Shown: one piece after another, positions 1,776 to 8,450 of the stretch
Numbering within the stretch: position 1 is the stretch's first letter
Layout of the letters: each line of letters opens with the position of its first letter
Source: Nitrospinota bacterium
Lineage (GTDB): Bacteria > Nitrospinota > Nitrospinia > JACRGO01
Assembly (NCBI GenBank): GCA_016212295.1
Contig: JACRGO010000083.1
Location: 1-8,986, forward strand
Direction of reading: 5' to 3'
DNA length: 8,986 nt
Notes under the pieces: generated by a model
What the model saw: the letters and a program-made list of their open reading frames with translations, nothing else
What the model was told of the DNA's origin: nothing
The model's database searches: none
Program-made: the position numbers and the translations under genes

Positions 1776-1955
1776 GCGGTTTTCTCATCAGGCAAGGCGC
1801 CGAAAAAAGCGCTGGAGATGCTAAAGACCCTTATCGTCCTTGGCGTCAAGGAGGCAATACGATTGAGCGGAGGGTTTGTGTACATTGACCCGGCTTATTG
1901 CTGGGTCGACGTCCTGGCTTCAGCCAAGAAATTCAAGACCCGGCGCGCTGGATAG
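1776..1955 (+). pseudogene. Remnant of a BTAD-type transcriptional regulator with an internal deletion
   Basis: An open stretch of 59 codons between a TAG at 1773 and a TAG at 1953. The first part, codons 3-23 (FSSGKAPKKALEMLKTLI then VLG), resembles the start of the winged-helix DNA-binding domain in large BTAD/TPR regulators, usually written FSGKA.KKPLELLKALIALG. Codons 24-46 (VKEAIRLSGG then FVYIDPAYCWVDV) resemble the end of that domain, where CWVDVWAFER is a familiar signature. About 40 residues that normally separate the two blocks are absent, and the join is in frame. After CWVDV the match fades within a few codons and the frame runs into the convergent nucleotidyltransferase 3' end. 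No start codon or upstream domain remains; the neighbouring frame (LGGF near 1770-1784) may hold a trace of the preceding strand. The family assignment is from memory of the motif and needs a profile search. Confidence 0.6.
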
Positions 1956-2295
1956 CCGGATACAGAATGAGTCCGTTTTGCCGGATTTCTTGAACCAGGG
2001 AAAAATCAATGGTTTCGAACTCATGCATGGTATAGCAGACGGCTTCCAGGGCGCGTTCCCCGTCCCAATGGGAAAGGACCAATTCCATGCGCTCCCAGGG
2101 TTTTATTCCTTTAAAATCCGGTGAAATAACACAAAGATCATAATCGCTCCAAGTGGTGTGTTCTCCCTTTGCCCTTGACCCGAAGAGGAGAACCCTCTCC
2201 ACATGAATGGCTTTTGAAAGGCCCCTGATCAGGCCATGGATCCAAGCTTCGTTTATAGCCTGGACGCCACAAAGTTCATCAGTATCTTCGCGCAT
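1933..2295 (-). CDS. Minimal nucleotidyltransferase (MNT/MntA-like), partner of HEPN protein
   Basis: A 120-residue single-domain nucleotidyltransferase of the DNA polymerase beta fold. The signature is clear: LLFGSRAKG at 36-44 (Gly-Ser 39-40), then SDYDL at 50-54 with metal-binding Asp 51 and Asp 53. Glu 84 in ALEAVCYT sits where many relatives carry a third acidic ligand, usually Asp. In HEPN-MNT modules the MntA-type enzyme can transfer AMP to the HEPN partner and neutralise its toxicity; such modules act as toxin-antitoxin systems. The gene begins with an ATG inside the 3' end of the upstream HEPN gene, a 43-nt overlap. A GAGG at 2306-2309 lies 10 nt upstream, supporting this start, and no in-frame ATG, GTG or TTG is found between it and the catalytic motif. 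Translational coupling to the HEPN gene is likely. The last codons overlap the convergent regulator remnant. Confidence 0.88.
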   Translation of the reverse strand: MREDTDELCGVQAINEAWIHGLIRGLSKAIHVERVLLFGSRAKGEHTTWSDYDLCVISPDFKGIKPWERMELVLSHWDGERALEAVCYTMHEFETIDFSLVQEIRQNGLILYPAIQRAGS

Positions 2296-2641
2296 TTCTC
2301 CAATTCCTCGATCATCGCCAAATCATAATAATCCCTGGGAATGCCTCCTACTCCATTTGGATACCTGGAAAGGATGTAATGGGGGTCCAAACGCCTGGCG
2401 GCCTGAAATGCCTCCTCCGGGACTTCCACTTGCATCCCCTGAAGTTTTTTCAGCAAGTCCAGGGAACTGTGGGTGAATCCGGGCCGTCCTTCCTTGAAGC
2501 ACAGCGCCTTCAACATTTTTTCCGTGTTCTGCTGCAAATGGAAGGCGGCCATGGCGTAATTTCCCTCTTTCTGAGGGTTTCAAAGGCGCTCCAGTCGTCC
2601 TTGGCGGACTCCAGCCACCAGTGTTGTTCCGCAGTTCTCAT
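2253..2641 (-). pseudogene. HEPN domain protein gene, broken by a one-base frameshift
   Basis: Reading from the ATG at 2641 gives MRTAEQHWWLESAKDDWSAF followed by ETLRKR, a typical HEPN (PF05168) N-terminus. This frame then drifts to PWPP and stops at 2510-2512. The family sequence continues in the next frame as GNYAMAAFHLQQNTEKMLKA, running to TAA at 2253. Adding one base in the AAAGAGGG tract (about 2563-2570) joins the two into a 129-residue protein of normal length; as it stands the region is 389 nt, one short of 130 codons. Later HEPN features are FTHSSLDLL, the PHYILSRYP loop and DYYDLAMI. An R-X4-H string occurs (RRLDPH), but not in the usual RN-x-x-x-H context of HEPN ribonucleases, so catalytic status is open. 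An internal ATG at 2552 could make a 99-residue fragment lacking the first helix. The cause may be true mutation, sequencing error or recoding. It overlaps the nucleotidyltransferase gene by 43 nt. Confidence 0.82.
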
Positions 2642-3172: not shown

Positions 3173-3898
3173 CTATAGCAAACGCAAAAGAAAGGATTCC
3201 CGGATGAAAAGAGCGGCCTTTCTGATTGTGTCCTCGTCGAAGAAATTGTAAAGGAACATGCCCATAACCTCGATTTTAATGGAGGAAAGTATTTCCCTTC
3301 CCCTTTGGGCATGTATCCAGAATGGGGAAGGCGCGGGATATGCCTCCAGTCCAAATTTCCCGGCGAAAAACAGACTTCGTCTCATGTGCAAAGGGGAGGT
3401 GACCAGAAGGGCCGTGCGGATGCCTTTCGCATCCATCAGCTTTTTGGAAAGACGCATATTCTCAAGGGTGTTCCGCGACTCCTCCTCGGTGAGGATGGCG
3501 TCTTCCGGCACACCCAGCTTAATTGCCAGGTCCTTCATGTACATGGCGTCATTGAGGTATTTTTCCGAAACCCTTCCTCCGGAGAAAAGGATTTTAGGAG
3601 CATAGCCTTGCCGCCAGAGTATGATTCCGTGGATTTCACGCCCCAGGGTCACTCCCTCCAGGACCCGCCTATTCTGGTCCGCTCCGCCGCTGAGAACGAT
3701 TATTACATCAGCTTTTTTCAGGTTCGGCTTCACCGCGAACCATTCCGCGAGCATGAATGGAAGGGGTGTCCAGCGGACAACCACTTCCTGGGAGATGAAG
3801 AGGACGGCTAAAACCGAGACCACAAGGCGTATGGGCCTGAACTTAAGGAAAAATTTCAGCGCCGACGCCAGGAAGTCAATGATTCCAATATAGATCAT
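3173..3898 (-). CDS. YdcF/ElyC/SanA-family (DUF218) envelope protein
   Basis: A 241-residue protein with a membrane segment near residues 23-38 followed by a DUF218 domain. Family landmarks are ADVIIVLSGG (63-72), the RRVLEGVTLGRE helix (77-88), KILFSGG (102-108), the acidic E-E-E-S-R-N-T-L-E-N cluster (138-147), and LLVTSPLHMRRS (164-175), where the Ser-x-x-His-x-x-Arg signature lies. Characterised relatives such as ElyC and SanA act on envelope integrity and peptidoglycan or lipid-carrier metabolism; the reaction of this protein is not known. The N-terminus in the cytoplasm with the domain outside the inner membrane is the usual topology. ATG at 3898 is chosen because it gives the full family N-terminus; the bases upstream are repetitive and show no clear Shine-Dalgarno. 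It follows the flavin transferase gene after a 70-nt repeat-rich spacer on the same strand. Confidence 0.9.
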   Translation of the reverse strand: MIYIGIIDFLASALKFFLKFRPIRLVVSVLAVLFISQEVVVRWTPLPFMLAEWFAVKPNLKKADVIIVLSGGADQNRRVLEGVTLGREIHGIILWRQGYAPKILFSGGRVSEKYLNDAMYMKDLAIKLGVPEDAILTEEESRNTLENMRLSKKLMDAKGIRTALLVTSPLHMRRSLFFAGKFGLEAYPAPSPFWIHAQRGREILSSIKIEVMGMFLYNFFDEDTIRKAALFIRESFLLRLL

Positions 3899-3968: not shown

Positions 3969-4994
3969 TTAATTGCCGAGTATTTCCACCTTCCCCTTCA
4001 ATCTCTCGCTCACCAGGATTTTTCCGTCCTTTGCCACGATGAATCCATCCATATCGTTCCTGGAGTTTATTAATTCCATCCCTTTTTCCGGGCCGAGAAT
4101 AAAGATACCGTCATCAACGGAGTCGGCGTAAACGGTTTTGTCCGTAACGATTGTGACGCTCTGGCACTCACCTGCCGGATAGCCGGTATCCGGGTCTATA
4201 ATATGATGGTATCGGACCCCGTCCTTGATGAAGTAATGCTCGTAGTCACCGGCTGTGACTACAGCCTTATCGGTCAATTCCAAAACCGCCAGAATTTCTT
4301 TTTCTTTTCTTGGATGCTGGATGCCGGTCCTCCAGACAGAGCCGTCAGGTTTGTGTCCGAAGAGCAAAATATCGCCACTGATATCCACAATCCCGCTTTT
4401 TATCCCTTTACTTTTTAAGAGCTTGACGGCCTGGTCCGCGGCGTATCCTTGGGCGATACCTCCAAGATCCAACGTCATCCCCTTTCTCTTGAGGAACACG
4501 GAACTGGAAACAGAGTCGATTTCAAGGTCCTTTATGCCTACCAGGGAACGCGCGGCCTGGATCTCGTCCGCTGATGGAACGAACTCCCGCTTACCGTTGT
4601 TTTCAAAATCCCACAGGCTGGTGAGCGGGCCTATGGTGATATCGAATTTTCCTGACGTCAGGGAGGTGGCAGGAAGGGAGTCCATGATTACCTGGAGAGT
4701 CTCCGGATTGACTTTCACGGGACCTTCTCCAGCGGAGGCGTTGATTTTTGTGGCATCGCTGGTGGGCTTCATTCTCATCATCAGTCCTTCAATCCGGCGT
4801 ATTTCGTCAAATGCCTCCTCGATCTTCACGGCGGCGTCCTTTTCATTGGAGTCCACTATCGTAATATTAACAATGGTCCCCATGATAAAGGCGGACTTTT
4901 TATATACCGCAGCTTCTTCGGCTTTTTCGCAGCCCAAGAGAGAGAGGAGGGAAAGGAGAACGCCGCATGTTCTTGCGATTCGTATGAATTTCAT
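3969..4994 (-). CDS. apbE: FAD:protein FMN transferase, lipoprotein (ApbE family)
   Basis: ApbE enzymes cleave FAD and attach FMN to a Thr or Ser of target proteins, such as Nqr/Rnf subunits or extracytoplasmic reductases, outside the inner membrane. From the ATG at 4994 the protein has 341 residues and opens with a lipoprotein signal, MKFIRIARTCGVLLSLLSLL then GC, so Cys 22 would be lipidated. ApbE motifs are KFDIT.GPLTSLWDF (116-130), LDLGGIAQGYAAD (175-187), VDISGDI (203-209) and HHIIDPDTGYPA (263-274). The frame extends upstream to a TTG at 5018, but that would put eight residues before the signal peptide, so ATG is preferred; neither has a good Shine-Dalgarno. An oddity is ADSVDDGIFILG (290-301): relatives usually have ADALSTALFVLG, with Thr four residues after the Asp as a metal ligand, here Asp 295. 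No flavinylation target or Nqr/Rnf gene is in view. Confidence 0.93.
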   Translation of the reverse strand: MKFIRIARTCGVLLSLLSLLGCEKAEEAAVYKKSAFIMGTIVNITIVDSNEKDAAVKIEEAFDEIRRIEGLMMRMKPTSDATKINASAGEGPVKVNPETLQVIMDSLPATSLTSGKFDITIGPLTSLWDFENNGKREFVPSADEIQAARSLVGIKDLEIDSVSSSVFLKRKGMTLDLGGIAQGYAADQAVKLLKSKGIKSGIVDISGDILLFGHKPDGSVWRTGIQHPRKEKEILAVLELTDKAVVTAGDYEHYFIKDGVRYHHIIDPDTGYPAGECQSVTIVTDKTVYADSVDDGIFILGPEKGMELINSRNDMDGFIVAKDGKILVSERLKGKVEILGN

Positions 4995-5020
4995 CACTAT
5001 TGTCGGGGTTTCTGGCAATG

Positions 5021-5042
5021 GTCAATTGTAAATCGTCAATTG
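5021..5042. repeat. GTCAATTG direct repeat across the prcB-like stop
   Basis: GTCAATTG occurs at 5021-5028 and again at 5035-5042, a 14-bp period. The core CAATTG is palindromic. The stop codon of the PrcB-domain gene (complement of 5036-5038) lies inside the second copy, so the repeat sets the last codon of that protein. Confidence 0.7.
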
Positions 5043-5533
5043 TGGAGGTGGAGAGTAAAAAGGACGCGGGAATTTTGATCACGAACTTCCACTTCTTTTG
5101 CCTCTGCTGCTCTCTTTACTTTAAAAAGGAGAAAAGGATTGGTGAGGACCTGGGCTTGCATGGTCCCCGGCGATGGTTTATTCAGGAATAGCTCTATTAT
5201 TAAAAGATCACCCTGCCATGTGACTTTTTTTAATTCCATTCCGTATCCGGCGGTGGGCTTTTCCCCGGCGGAGGCAAGGAAAACAAAAAATTCCTGGAAA
5301 TCCACTTGAGGCACAGCGGGAGAGGGGAGCACATTCGAGTAGATCAGCTTGAAGGCTTGTTCAAATTTTTCAGGACTGTTTATGGCTTCGAAGTGAAAAT
5401 CAGGAGAATGCCGCCCAATGCGTATTCCCCGGTCCATGACCTCATAGAGGCGCGGTTGAGAGGCGCAGGAAGAAAAAAGGAAACAATGCAACAGAATAAA
5501 TATGGGAATTATTTTTTTGCCTGAATTTTTCAT
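5036..5533 (-). CDS. PrcB-domain lipoprotein, probable S8-protease accessory
   Basis: A 165-residue predicted lipoprotein counted from the ATG at 5533. The signal peptide (MKNSGKKIIPIFILLHCFLF) ends in an SSC lipobox with Cys 23. Residues about 80-140 match the PrcB C-terminal domain (PF14343): VDF, the F-F-V-F-L strand, GEKPTAGYGMEL, then KPSPGTMQAQVLTNPFLL. The name comes from PrcB of Treponema denticola, a lipoprotein of the dentilisin complex needed for the subtilisin-like protease PrtP. Here the gene sits 97 nt downstream of a secreted S8 peptidase on the same strand, which supports a related role: chaperone, anchor or stabiliser of that protease. No PrcA homologue is present. A TTG at 5539 is an alternative start two codons earlier; it has an AGGG at better spacing (about 9 nt), while the ATG is the stronger codon. 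It is followed closely by apbE. Confidence 0.82.
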   Translation of the reverse strand: MKNSGKKIIPIFILLHCFLFSSCASQPRLYEVMDRGIRIGRHSPDFHFEAINSPEKFEQAFKLIYSNVLPSPAVPQVDFQEFFVFLASAGEKPTAGYGMELKKVTWQGDLLIIELFLNKPSPGTMQAQVLTNPFLLFKVKRAAEAKEVEVRDQNSRVLFTLHLHN

Positions 5534-5630
5534 TTGCAATTATTTGTGCCCTATGGAGCCAGCAGATGTGGAAAAATTCTTCCTTTAGGCTGAATTCCGG
5601 ATCCTGCCACCTGATCCATGACTCCTGACG

Positions 5631-8450
5631 TCATCGTAACCTCTTGAATTTCTCCCTATGCGGTTTTTGGCCGGTCCCGGATCCTTGGCTTTGAGGCGAC
5701 ATGAGTTCCCCCAAATCAAAATTAATGTCAGCGGTATTTTGTCCAGGGGCAATAGTCACCAGGTCCGGATAAATCCCGCAGGCGTCTTCCACGTCGCAGA
5801 TAAAAAGGTCATCATCACGGTCAGTGCCGGCGGCTATGATATAAGTCCCGGCCGGGACCTGTGACTTATCGAAGGCATATTCATTGCCGGAGTCGGTGAC
5901 GGCTTGGGTAATGGCGGTTAGGTTTCCGGCGTCAAGAAAAAGGACGTAAACAGTTCCCACGTCGCCGCTTGCTGATCCTCCCGCGCTTACCACGCTCATT
6001 GTCACGGTTATGGCCGCTGTATTGCTTCCCTTGGCGGCGTCTGATTGGACTGTCACCGTGGCGCTGTAATTTCCAGCGGAAAGGCCAGCGCGGTCCACGC
6101 CCAAGCCCACGGACAATGGGGCCGTGCCGGACGTGGTTTTCACGCTCAACCAGGACGCATCGGAGGACACGGAGGTTATATTCAATGTTCCTCCGCCGGA
6201 ATTGCTTATGTCAAAGGAAAGGTCGGAAAGATAGTTCTCAAAGCTGAGGGTCGAATTGGAAATGGAAAGGATGGATTCCGTGGGGGGGGCTGTTCCTCCT
6301 CCGCCCGCTATCTCTTTCGCCGCTAACACAGCCTGGGACGCGTCAATAAGCCCATTACCGTATATATTGTCCCATCCGGCTTCCCCGATGTCTCTCGTGA
6401 TGCGCAGGCTGGTCTTGGAGTGGGTCCCCTTCAGGAGATCATCAAGGTCGGTTGGAGTGAGATTCGGGTTGACGGCCATCATTAAGGCCACTACCCCGGC
6501 CATGTGTGGAGAGGCCATGGAAGTGCCTTGGTAAAAACGATACGTTAATTTGCCGGAGTCATCACCCAAAGTGCTCAACACGCCGTCCTCATAACCGTCG
6601 TTGTTGAGATCCACGCTGGAATCCCCGCCAGGGGCCGCCACGTCTATGGCGTTGCCGTAATTTGAATAAGGGGACTTTTGGGAATTCATGTCCACGGCGG
6701 ACACGGAGACTACTCCGTCATAGGATGCTGGATAGAATAATGTGCTAACGTTGTCGTTTCCGGCGGCGGCCACAATGATTACCCCCTGGTCTCTTGCGGC
6801 CTGTATAGCGTTCTTTGTTGTGGCGCTGGAGCCCGCTCCCCCCAGACTCATATTGATAATATTAGCCCTTTTGGAAGGAGTCGTGCCGGAACTATTGGAA
6901 AGGCCGGCGGCATAACGGATGGCCTGGGCTATGTCCGCGTCCGTTCCCCCTCCAATCCCCAATACGCGAAGCGGCATTATCCTGGTCTCCCATGATACGC
7001 CGGCGACGCCTACGGAGTTGTTTGTAGCCGCCCCGATGGTCCCGGCCACATGGGTCCCGTGGAAGGAACTGCTGCTTTTCTTATAGTCGTCCCCCACGTC
7101 CGTTGGATCGGAATCAATACCGTTTCCATCCCCGCCGATAGAGGGGTCGCTGATAAAATCGTAGCCGGAGACCAGCTTGGAACTCAGGTCCGGATGGCTC
7201 GACAAAATGCCGGTATCAATAACCGCCACTATGACGTCGGCGCTGCCTGTTGTTGTCTCCCATGCCTGCGGCAGGTTTATGAGCGGATAGTGCCACTGGA
7301 GTTTATAATGTTCGTCATTAGGGGTTTTGAGCGGTTTTCTGATGAAGTTCGGTTCCGCGTACTCGATATCCTGGTCATTTCGCAGTTGGCGTATGGCATC
7401 CACGGTCAGGGACTTGAGTGCGTTCTTTTCACTTCCCGGCAAATTCAATTTACCTGCCCCACGGCCTTTTTGGAGAGCGGATTTTTTCGCTGGCAGCACC
7501 CGCATAAGTTCCACCCCTCCCGGCAGATCACGTTCATGCGCCAAGGCCGCCCCGGAGGAAAGGGAGAAATTTTTCTTTCGGATTCCGTCGCGTCCCTCTT
7601 TCCATTTCATTAGAATATGGCCTGGAACAAAATCCGCTCCGATAGGGGCAATATTATCGTCCGCTGACTGGGTGGACAAGCTTCCAAGGGATGAAAAGGA
7701 AAGGGAGTACGCGCTGGACCCTTTACTAACCCTGACCCCAACCAGAAAAGATCCCGCAGCGGTGGTTTCCAGCCGTTCCGTATTGGTGTTTCCCTCTGAC
7801 AGGTCAACAATAGTGCCGGATGAATCCATGAGGACTAAATCCAGGTCATTATAGACGAGATCGTTCGCTGCTACGGTTAAAGTGATCCTGGCCGGCCCGG
7901 GGGCCTGCAATAAATACAGGTCTTCCACCTGGAGTCCTGCGTACGCAGTCCCTATGAATTGCGGCAGGATAAATCCCGCATCCCCATAAGCGGCGTCCCC
8001 AAAAACCTTGGATGAGTTGGTGACGGATTGGGCCTGCGCGATGGAGTTGTTCGGCTCCTGCTCCACAACGTTGTCCGGCGATACAGCCAGTTTTCCGGAC
8101 GCGCTTCCTGGTTGCTTTTGCTTTTCATAAATCGCGGTGACGGTCGCGGTCCTTTTTGCCCTGACGCGCGCCACCGTTTGCCCGCTTTGAGGCTTTTTGA
8201 GCTTGTATCCGGTTAAGGTGCCGAACTGGACGGCATAATTTCCCGGCGGCAGGGAATATTGAACCTGTTTAGTTCCGAAATAAAAACCCTCAATATAAAT
8301 AGGCGCGTCCACGGCCTTTCCGGCTGTATCCTTGGTTTTTATAACGATTTTGCCGTAGCCTGCCCCTTCGGCGGTGTTTACTGGAAAGAGAGGATGTAAA
8401 GTCGCCAGGAAAAACGAGATGGCAAAAAATAAGAGCGTGTGTTTTCGCAT
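5631..8450 (-). CDS. Secreted subtilisin-family (S8) serine peptidase, multidomain
   Basis: A 939-residue exported protease. The signal peptide (about 1-29) is followed by a PEGA-like beta domain (32-110), a bacterial pre-peptidase C (PPC) domain beginning EQEPNNS (130-253), and a prodomain opening FVPGHILMKW (274-370), which probably acts as intramolecular chaperone and inhibitor. The S8 catalytic domain spans 380-712, with Asp 412 (VIDTG), His 464 (FHGTHVAG), oxyanion Asn 565 (AAAGND) and Ser 644 (GTSMASPH), all intact. After it come a BACON-like beta domain (about 727-820, with SWLSV) and a C-terminal beta domain (832-914) with an acid-rich loop, DRDDDLFICDVEDACGIYPD. The protein ends in a basic tail without LPXTG or PEP-CTERM sorting signals. 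ATG at 8450 is well supported: GGAGGA stands 9 nt upstream and the signal peptide starts at once. A PrcB-domain lipoprotein gene follows 97 nt downstream and may serve this protease. Target proteins are unknown. Confidence 0.95.
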   Translation of the reverse strand: MRKHTLLFFAISFFLATLHPLFPVNTAEGAGYGKIVIKTKDTAGKAVDAPIYIEGFYFGTKQVQYSLPPGNYAVQFGTLTGYKLKKPQSGQTVARVRAKRTATVTAIYEKQKQPGSASGKLAVSPDNVVEQEPNNSIAQAQSVTNSSKVFGDAAYGDAGFILPQFIGTAYAGLQVEDLYLLQAPGPARITLTVAANDLVYNDLDLVLMDSSGTIVDLSEGNTNTERLETTAAGSFLVGVRVSKGSSAYSLSFSSLGSLSTQSADDNIAPIGADFVPGHILMKWKEGRDGIRKKNFSLSSGAALAHERDLPGGVELMRVLPAKKSALQKGRGAGKLNLPGSEKNALKSLTVDAIRQLRNDQDIEYAEPNFIRKPLKTPNDEHYKLQWHYPLINLPQAWETTTGSADVIVAVIDTGILSSHPDLSSKLVSGYDFISDPSIGGDGNGIDSDPTDVGDDYKKSSSSFHGTHVAGTIGAATNNSVGVAGVSWETRIMPLRVLGIGGGTDADIAQAIRYAAGLSNSSGTTPSKRANIINMSLGGAGSSATTKNAIQAARDQGVIIVAAAGNDNVSTLFYPASYDGVVSVSAVDMNSQKSPYSNYGNAIDVAAPGGDSSVDLNNDGYEDGVLSTLGDDSGKLTYRFYQGTSMASPHMAGVVALMMAVNPNLTPTDLDDLLKGTHSKTSLRITRDIGEAGWDNIYGNGLIDASQAVLAAKEIAGGGGTAPPTESILSISNSTLSFENYLSDLSFDISNSGGGTLNITSVSSDASWLSVKTTSGTAPLSVGLGVDRAGLSAGNYSATVTVQSDAAKGSNTAAITVTMSVVSAGGSASGDVGTVYVLFLDAGNLTAITQAVTDSGNEYAFDKSQVPAGTYIIAAGTDRDDDLFICDVEDACGIYPDLVTIAPGQNTADINFDLGELMSPQSQGSGTGQKPHREKFKRLR

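Follow-up and report, generated by a model that had tools for sequence, protein, structure and literature searches.

The window analysed here, an 8,986-nucleotide contig (C30) of the Nitrospinota genome G000 (3.74 Mb, 237 contigs), carries a gene for a secreted S8 (subtilisin-family) peptidase and, next to it on the same strand, a gene for a predicted PrcB_C-domain lipoprotein. They are the sole S8 gene and the sole PrcB_C gene found in that genome, and the two families also stand side by side in a second genome of the phylum, from a different family, and on two cyanobacterial plasmids. We tentatively read the pair as a two-component envelope protease, in which the PrcB_C lipoprotein would anchor and stabilise the exported S8 enzyme, and as a recurrent arrangement rather than a descendant of dentilisin, the PrcB-PrcA-PrtP complex of Treponema denticola. 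The pairing is real and probably functional, and its occurrence with other subtilisins elsewhere suggests a reusable protease partner, not a copy of the Treponema complex.

The gene pair and the layout of the protease

The features of the pair and its neighbours, all on the minus strand, are as follows.
5631..8450, minus: secreted S8 (subtilisin-family) peptidase, 939 aa (PF00082)
8046..8450, minus: signal peptide and PEGA-like N-terminal module, residues 1-135
7641..8072, minus: predicted beta-jelly-roll (PPC/P-domain-like) domain, residues 127-270, ahead of the prodomain (predicted structure)
7275..7664, minus: I9/fervidolysin-type prodomain region, residues 263-392 (weak PF22148 match)
6351..7238, minus: S8 catalytic domain, residues 405-700 (PF00082)
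7217-7215, 7061-7059 and 6521-6519, minus: codons of catalytic residues D412, H464 and S644
5631..6314, minus: C-terminal Ig-like/BACON-like region of the protease (BACON_2)
5036..5539 (TTG start) or 5036..5533 (ATG start), minus: predicted lipoprotein with PrcB_C domain (PF14343)
3969-5018, minus: ApbE protein
3173-3898, minus: DUF218 protein

The order of transcription is S8, PrcB_C, ApbE and DUF218. The first-pass annotation had given the gap between protease and lipoprotein as 97 nt, which holds for the ATG start; with the alternative TTG start, which has AGGG 9 nt upstream, it is 91 nt. At 91-97 nt the gap is wide for a tight operon, a point counted against the two-component reading, in which the genes would be co-transcribed. 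ApbE was rejected as a member of the module because the same-genus genome G002 has its ortholog in an unrelated neighbourhood. Farther along the window (1933-2552, minus strand), a HEPN protein gene overlaps that of an MNT-type nucleotidyltransferase, resembling a HEPN-MNT toxin-antitoxin pair. An Rfam search of the window gave no match.

Both family assignments were upheld by profile searches. The peptidase matched PF00082 at 200 bits (cut-off 21.8, E-value = 6.5e-59), and its catalytic triad is intact and in order, with the motifs DTG at D412, HGTHVAG at H464 and GTSMASPH at S644 and the oxyanion residue N565. The lipoprotein matched PF14343 over residues 88-142 (40.1 bits, cut-off 24, E-value = 4.3e-10). 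The PEGA, PPC and prodomain parts ascribed earlier to the protease fared less well. PEGA (PF08308) reached 14.2 bits in the N-terminus against a gathering cut-off of 20.8, and the fervidolysin-type prodomain profile PF22148 reached 15 bits at residues 351-368 against a cut-off of 21, both below threshold; the prodomain region ends in DIEYAEPNF. PPC had no Pfam match in the protease, but an AlphaFold single-sequence model of residues 127-270, of low confidence (pLDDT 60), matched the Tk-SP subtilisin by Foldseek (E-value = 1.5e-5), as well as the jelly-roll domains of SubHal and KP-43 and the ColH collagen-binding domain. A PPC/P-domain-like fold is therefore likely in this region. When the C-terminal region was searched alone, BACON_2 was matched at 25.4 bits (cut-off 25). 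A lipidated cysteine was looked for in the protease, and its N-terminal signal region (MRKHTLLFFAISFFLATLHPLFPVNTAEGAG) contains no cysteine.

Residues 1-126 of the protease match about 20 other ORFs of the same genome (L020-L035, L092, L093), and a profile of this module picked out 29 stretches in it; the other 76 genomes of the phylum, one of them from the same genus and 99% complete, gave no match. The domains following the module comprise RCC1, kelch, PQQ-type propellers, Fib_succ_major, Lcl_C, FGE-like, CAP and chitobiase-C-like domains, and PEGA (PF08308) matched weakly in 5 of 16 module copies. The protease therefore belongs to a group of exported proteins, peculiar to this genome, that share a PEGA-like N-terminus, a result that may merit more attention than the S8-PrcB_C pair. 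A diversity-generating retroelement serving the module-bearing C-type-lectin-like proteins was considered and rejected: the sole RVT_1 gene of the genome (contig C142, L091 9962-11338) looks like a reverse transcriptase of the group II intron type, and no adenine-biased repeat pairs were seen.

Recurrence of the pairing

In a census of 77 genomes of the phylum, PF14343 was found in 4 and PF00082 in 20. Two of the four genomes with PrcB_C genes have them adjoining S8 (G000 and G067), against about 0.002 expected from the S8 counts, and the chance that a single S8 gene and a single PrcB_C gene adjoin is about 6e-4 in G000 and 1.6e-3 in G067 (MAG SZUA-224, L005/L043). The pair also recurs on plasmids of Tolypothrix PCC 7712 (NZ_CP063792) and Nostoc UHCC 0926 (pn1), where S8 is followed by PrcB_C nearly end to end, in agreement with the earlier proposal that such pairs exist outside spirochetes.

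Because the window had been chosen for its pair, it was left out of a fairer test across 14 PrcB_C groups. Two of these (G067 and the cyanobacterial plasmids) have S8 next door, where 0.035 would be expected (P about 5e-4; the value is rough, as it supposes 950 genes per Mb and, for two groups, S8 densities that were guessed). The other twelve had no S8 neighbour in the examined flanks, some of which end at contig ends; neighbours were sought by phmmer with the window S8 domain, which a very divergent S8 could escape. The unpaired groups, MAGs or isolates so labelled, are Psychracetigena, Competibacteraceae, Lokiarchaeota, Gemmatimonadetes, Deltaproteobacteria, Flavobacterium, Cloacimonetes, Chloroflexi, Campylobacterales, Nitrospinota, Bernardetia and G068. 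Loci L006, L007 and L054 likewise have PrcB_C with no S8 neighbour, and G068 and G072 encode PrcB_C but lack S8 anywhere in the genome. As PrcB_C is mostly not linked to S8, its presence alone is no marker of a protease module.

These unpaired groups are what would be expected under the main null, namely that the two genes are neighbours without a functional tie, PrcB_C having some other envelope role and the adjacency being accidental. The ApbE gene, equally close on the other flank and in an unrelated context in G002, fits this as well, and so does the GC content of the lipoprotein gene (45%, against 54% for the S8 gene), a gap that may reflect different histories. However, the small chance of adjacency in G000 and G067 and the recurrence of the pairing in cyanobacteria and Treponema make an accidental origin somewhat unlikely.

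The individual pairs differ from one another. The G067 pair resembles that of the window in being adjacent and co-directional and in lacking PrcA, and its S8 domain is 43% identical to the window's; it differs in that the PrcB_C gene comes first and the PEGA-like module is missing. The S8 of G067 groups with S8 genes lacking any detected PrcB_C neighbour, among them that of G069, a genome (58% complete) in which no PrcB_C was found. The Tolypothrix and Nostoc pairs share with the window the S8 gene in first place and PrcB_C directly behind, whereas they belong to another S8 lineage and neither partner has a signal peptide. Their flanking genes (L052 1763-6143; L053 1778-6042) encode a ribonuclease-domain protein and several small ones, all with a common acidic leader at the N-terminus (E.FSEA..E.LE), another difference from the window; the cyanobacterial S8 enzyme may process this leader.

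In the tree of S8 domains, the window, G067 and cyanobacterial domains did not form one clade (AU P-value = 0.02 for all four, and likewise 0.02 for a clade of window and G067), a rejection that is weakened by long branches and carries moderate weight. Together with the reversed gene order, the tree favours repeated recruitment of PrcB_C, which would have become the partner of one S8 enzyme or another on several occasions, now upstream and now downstream of the protease gene.

Possible roles of the PrcB_C protein

The designation as a PrcB_C lipoprotein was secure for the domain and less so for the lipid, as the candidate lipobox (LFSSC at residues 21-25, with Phe at -3) is plausible but non-canonical. 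The structure model of the protein is beta-rich and confident (pLDDT 88). Of the family's loops, G(E/Q)xxTGGY and TQALTxPY are the most conserved; they lie on either side of a predicted beta-hairpin and correspond in the window protein to G90 to G96 and to L130-T131-P133; judging from strand order, both should sit at one end of the sheet. Its identity to other PrcB_C proteins is low, about 17-28%. Neither the lipoprotein sequence nor the PrcB_C profile found a significant match among PDB sequences, and Foldseek of the model against PDB and viral structures returned none under an E-value of 0.001. NigD-like Bacteroides proteins were rejected as structural relatives, the best VIA-align Z of 4.8 being too weak, and no PrcB_C relatives were found in viral contigs or phages.

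In the two-component reading, the S8 enzyme would be exported by its signal peptide and, by analogy with other subtilisins, would mature by losing the N-terminal part (PEGA-like, jelly-roll and prodomain). The PrcB_C lipoprotein would sit in the membrane through its lipid, bind the enzyme, and stabilise it and keep it on the cell surface, the part that PrcB plays for PrtP. The two proteins interact in T. denticola, where PrtP is undetected without PrcB (PMC8167434). The window pair would then be a functional analogue of the PrcB-PrtP step that dispenses with PrcA. The T. denticola data were counted in favour of the two-component reading together with the adjacency in G000, the two of four in the phylum, the cyanobacterial plasmids and the 14-group test; counted against it, besides the long gap, were the many PrcB_C genes with no S8 neighbour (with G068 and G072 lacking S8 altogether), the low identity among PrcB_C proteins and the fact that lipidation is not conserved in the cyanobacterial partners.

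The main functional rival has the lipoprotein as a peptidase inhibitor or regulator, which would bind active S8 at the envelope, restrain it and so protect the cell. The predicted position of the conserved loops at the same end of the sheet would resemble a binding edge, and PrcB_C also occurs near caspase-like C14 genes, so that it may serve peptidases generally. In one such case (L045, 1400-6312) it is fused to a VWA-like protein, the VWA being read by eye, and in the other (L049, 1551-6285) to ankyrin repeats, the C14 assignment being read by eye. However, the T. denticola PrcB, the only relative tested, is needed for the presence of PrtP and is part of the active complex (PMC8167434), and structural searches with the model turned up no inhibitor fold at a significant score, which renders an inhibitory role quite unlikely.

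A broader proposal, which we regard as doubtful, is that PrcB_C acts as an all-round partner of extracytoplasmic and processing peptidases (S8 in several lineages, caspase-like C14 in others). Different enzymes would have recruited it time and again; it could do without PrcA or lipid and function even in the cytoplasm, and dentilisin would be one specialised case of a widespread device. If PrcB_C does repeatedly pair with unrelated S8 enzymes, a minimal protease-PrcB unit would be open to study in non-pathogens, and annotations as "protease complex subunit PrcB family" would become testable, and not names inherited from Treponema.

Comparison with dentilisin and other subtilisins

The window and dentilisin share a subtilisin-family protease beside a PrcB_C lipoprotein and an N-terminal propeptide part before the catalytic domain. 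In the mature Treponema complex, PrcB retains its lipid, while an N-terminal piece of PrtP is released; PrcB and PrcA are both reported to be unique to oral spirochetes (PMC8167434). The first-pass annotation had called the pair dentilisin-like, and as a statement of descent this was not sustained. A true relative would be a prcB-prtP operon reduced by the loss of PrcA and with its order inverted. The lipoprotein indeed matches no NCBIfam model other than denti_PrcB (NF033596), and denti_PrtP (NF033595) ranks second among the matches of the protease. Both scores are, however, far under the curated equivalog cut-offs (45.4 bits against 125 and 120.4 bits against 300), and a mycosin model scores higher on the protease. 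As the earlier annotation had observed, PrcA is absent (NF033597 matched nothing in G000 or G067) and the gene order prcB-prcA-prtP is reversed, with the protease first and PrcB_C second. In addition, the window protease has no lipoprotein signal where that of dentilisin is acylated, its accessory domains are different (PEGA-like, jelly-roll, BACON-like), and its S8 domain stood apart from those of the other PrcB-linked proteases in the tree above (P-value = 0.02). Descent from dentilisin is accordingly very improbable.

The Tk-SP, SubHal and KP-43 subtilisins resemble the window protease in combining a subtilisin with a beta-jelly-roll domain. In those enzymes the jelly-roll comes after the catalytic domain, whereas the one predicted in the window protease precedes the prodomain, which is an unusual position.
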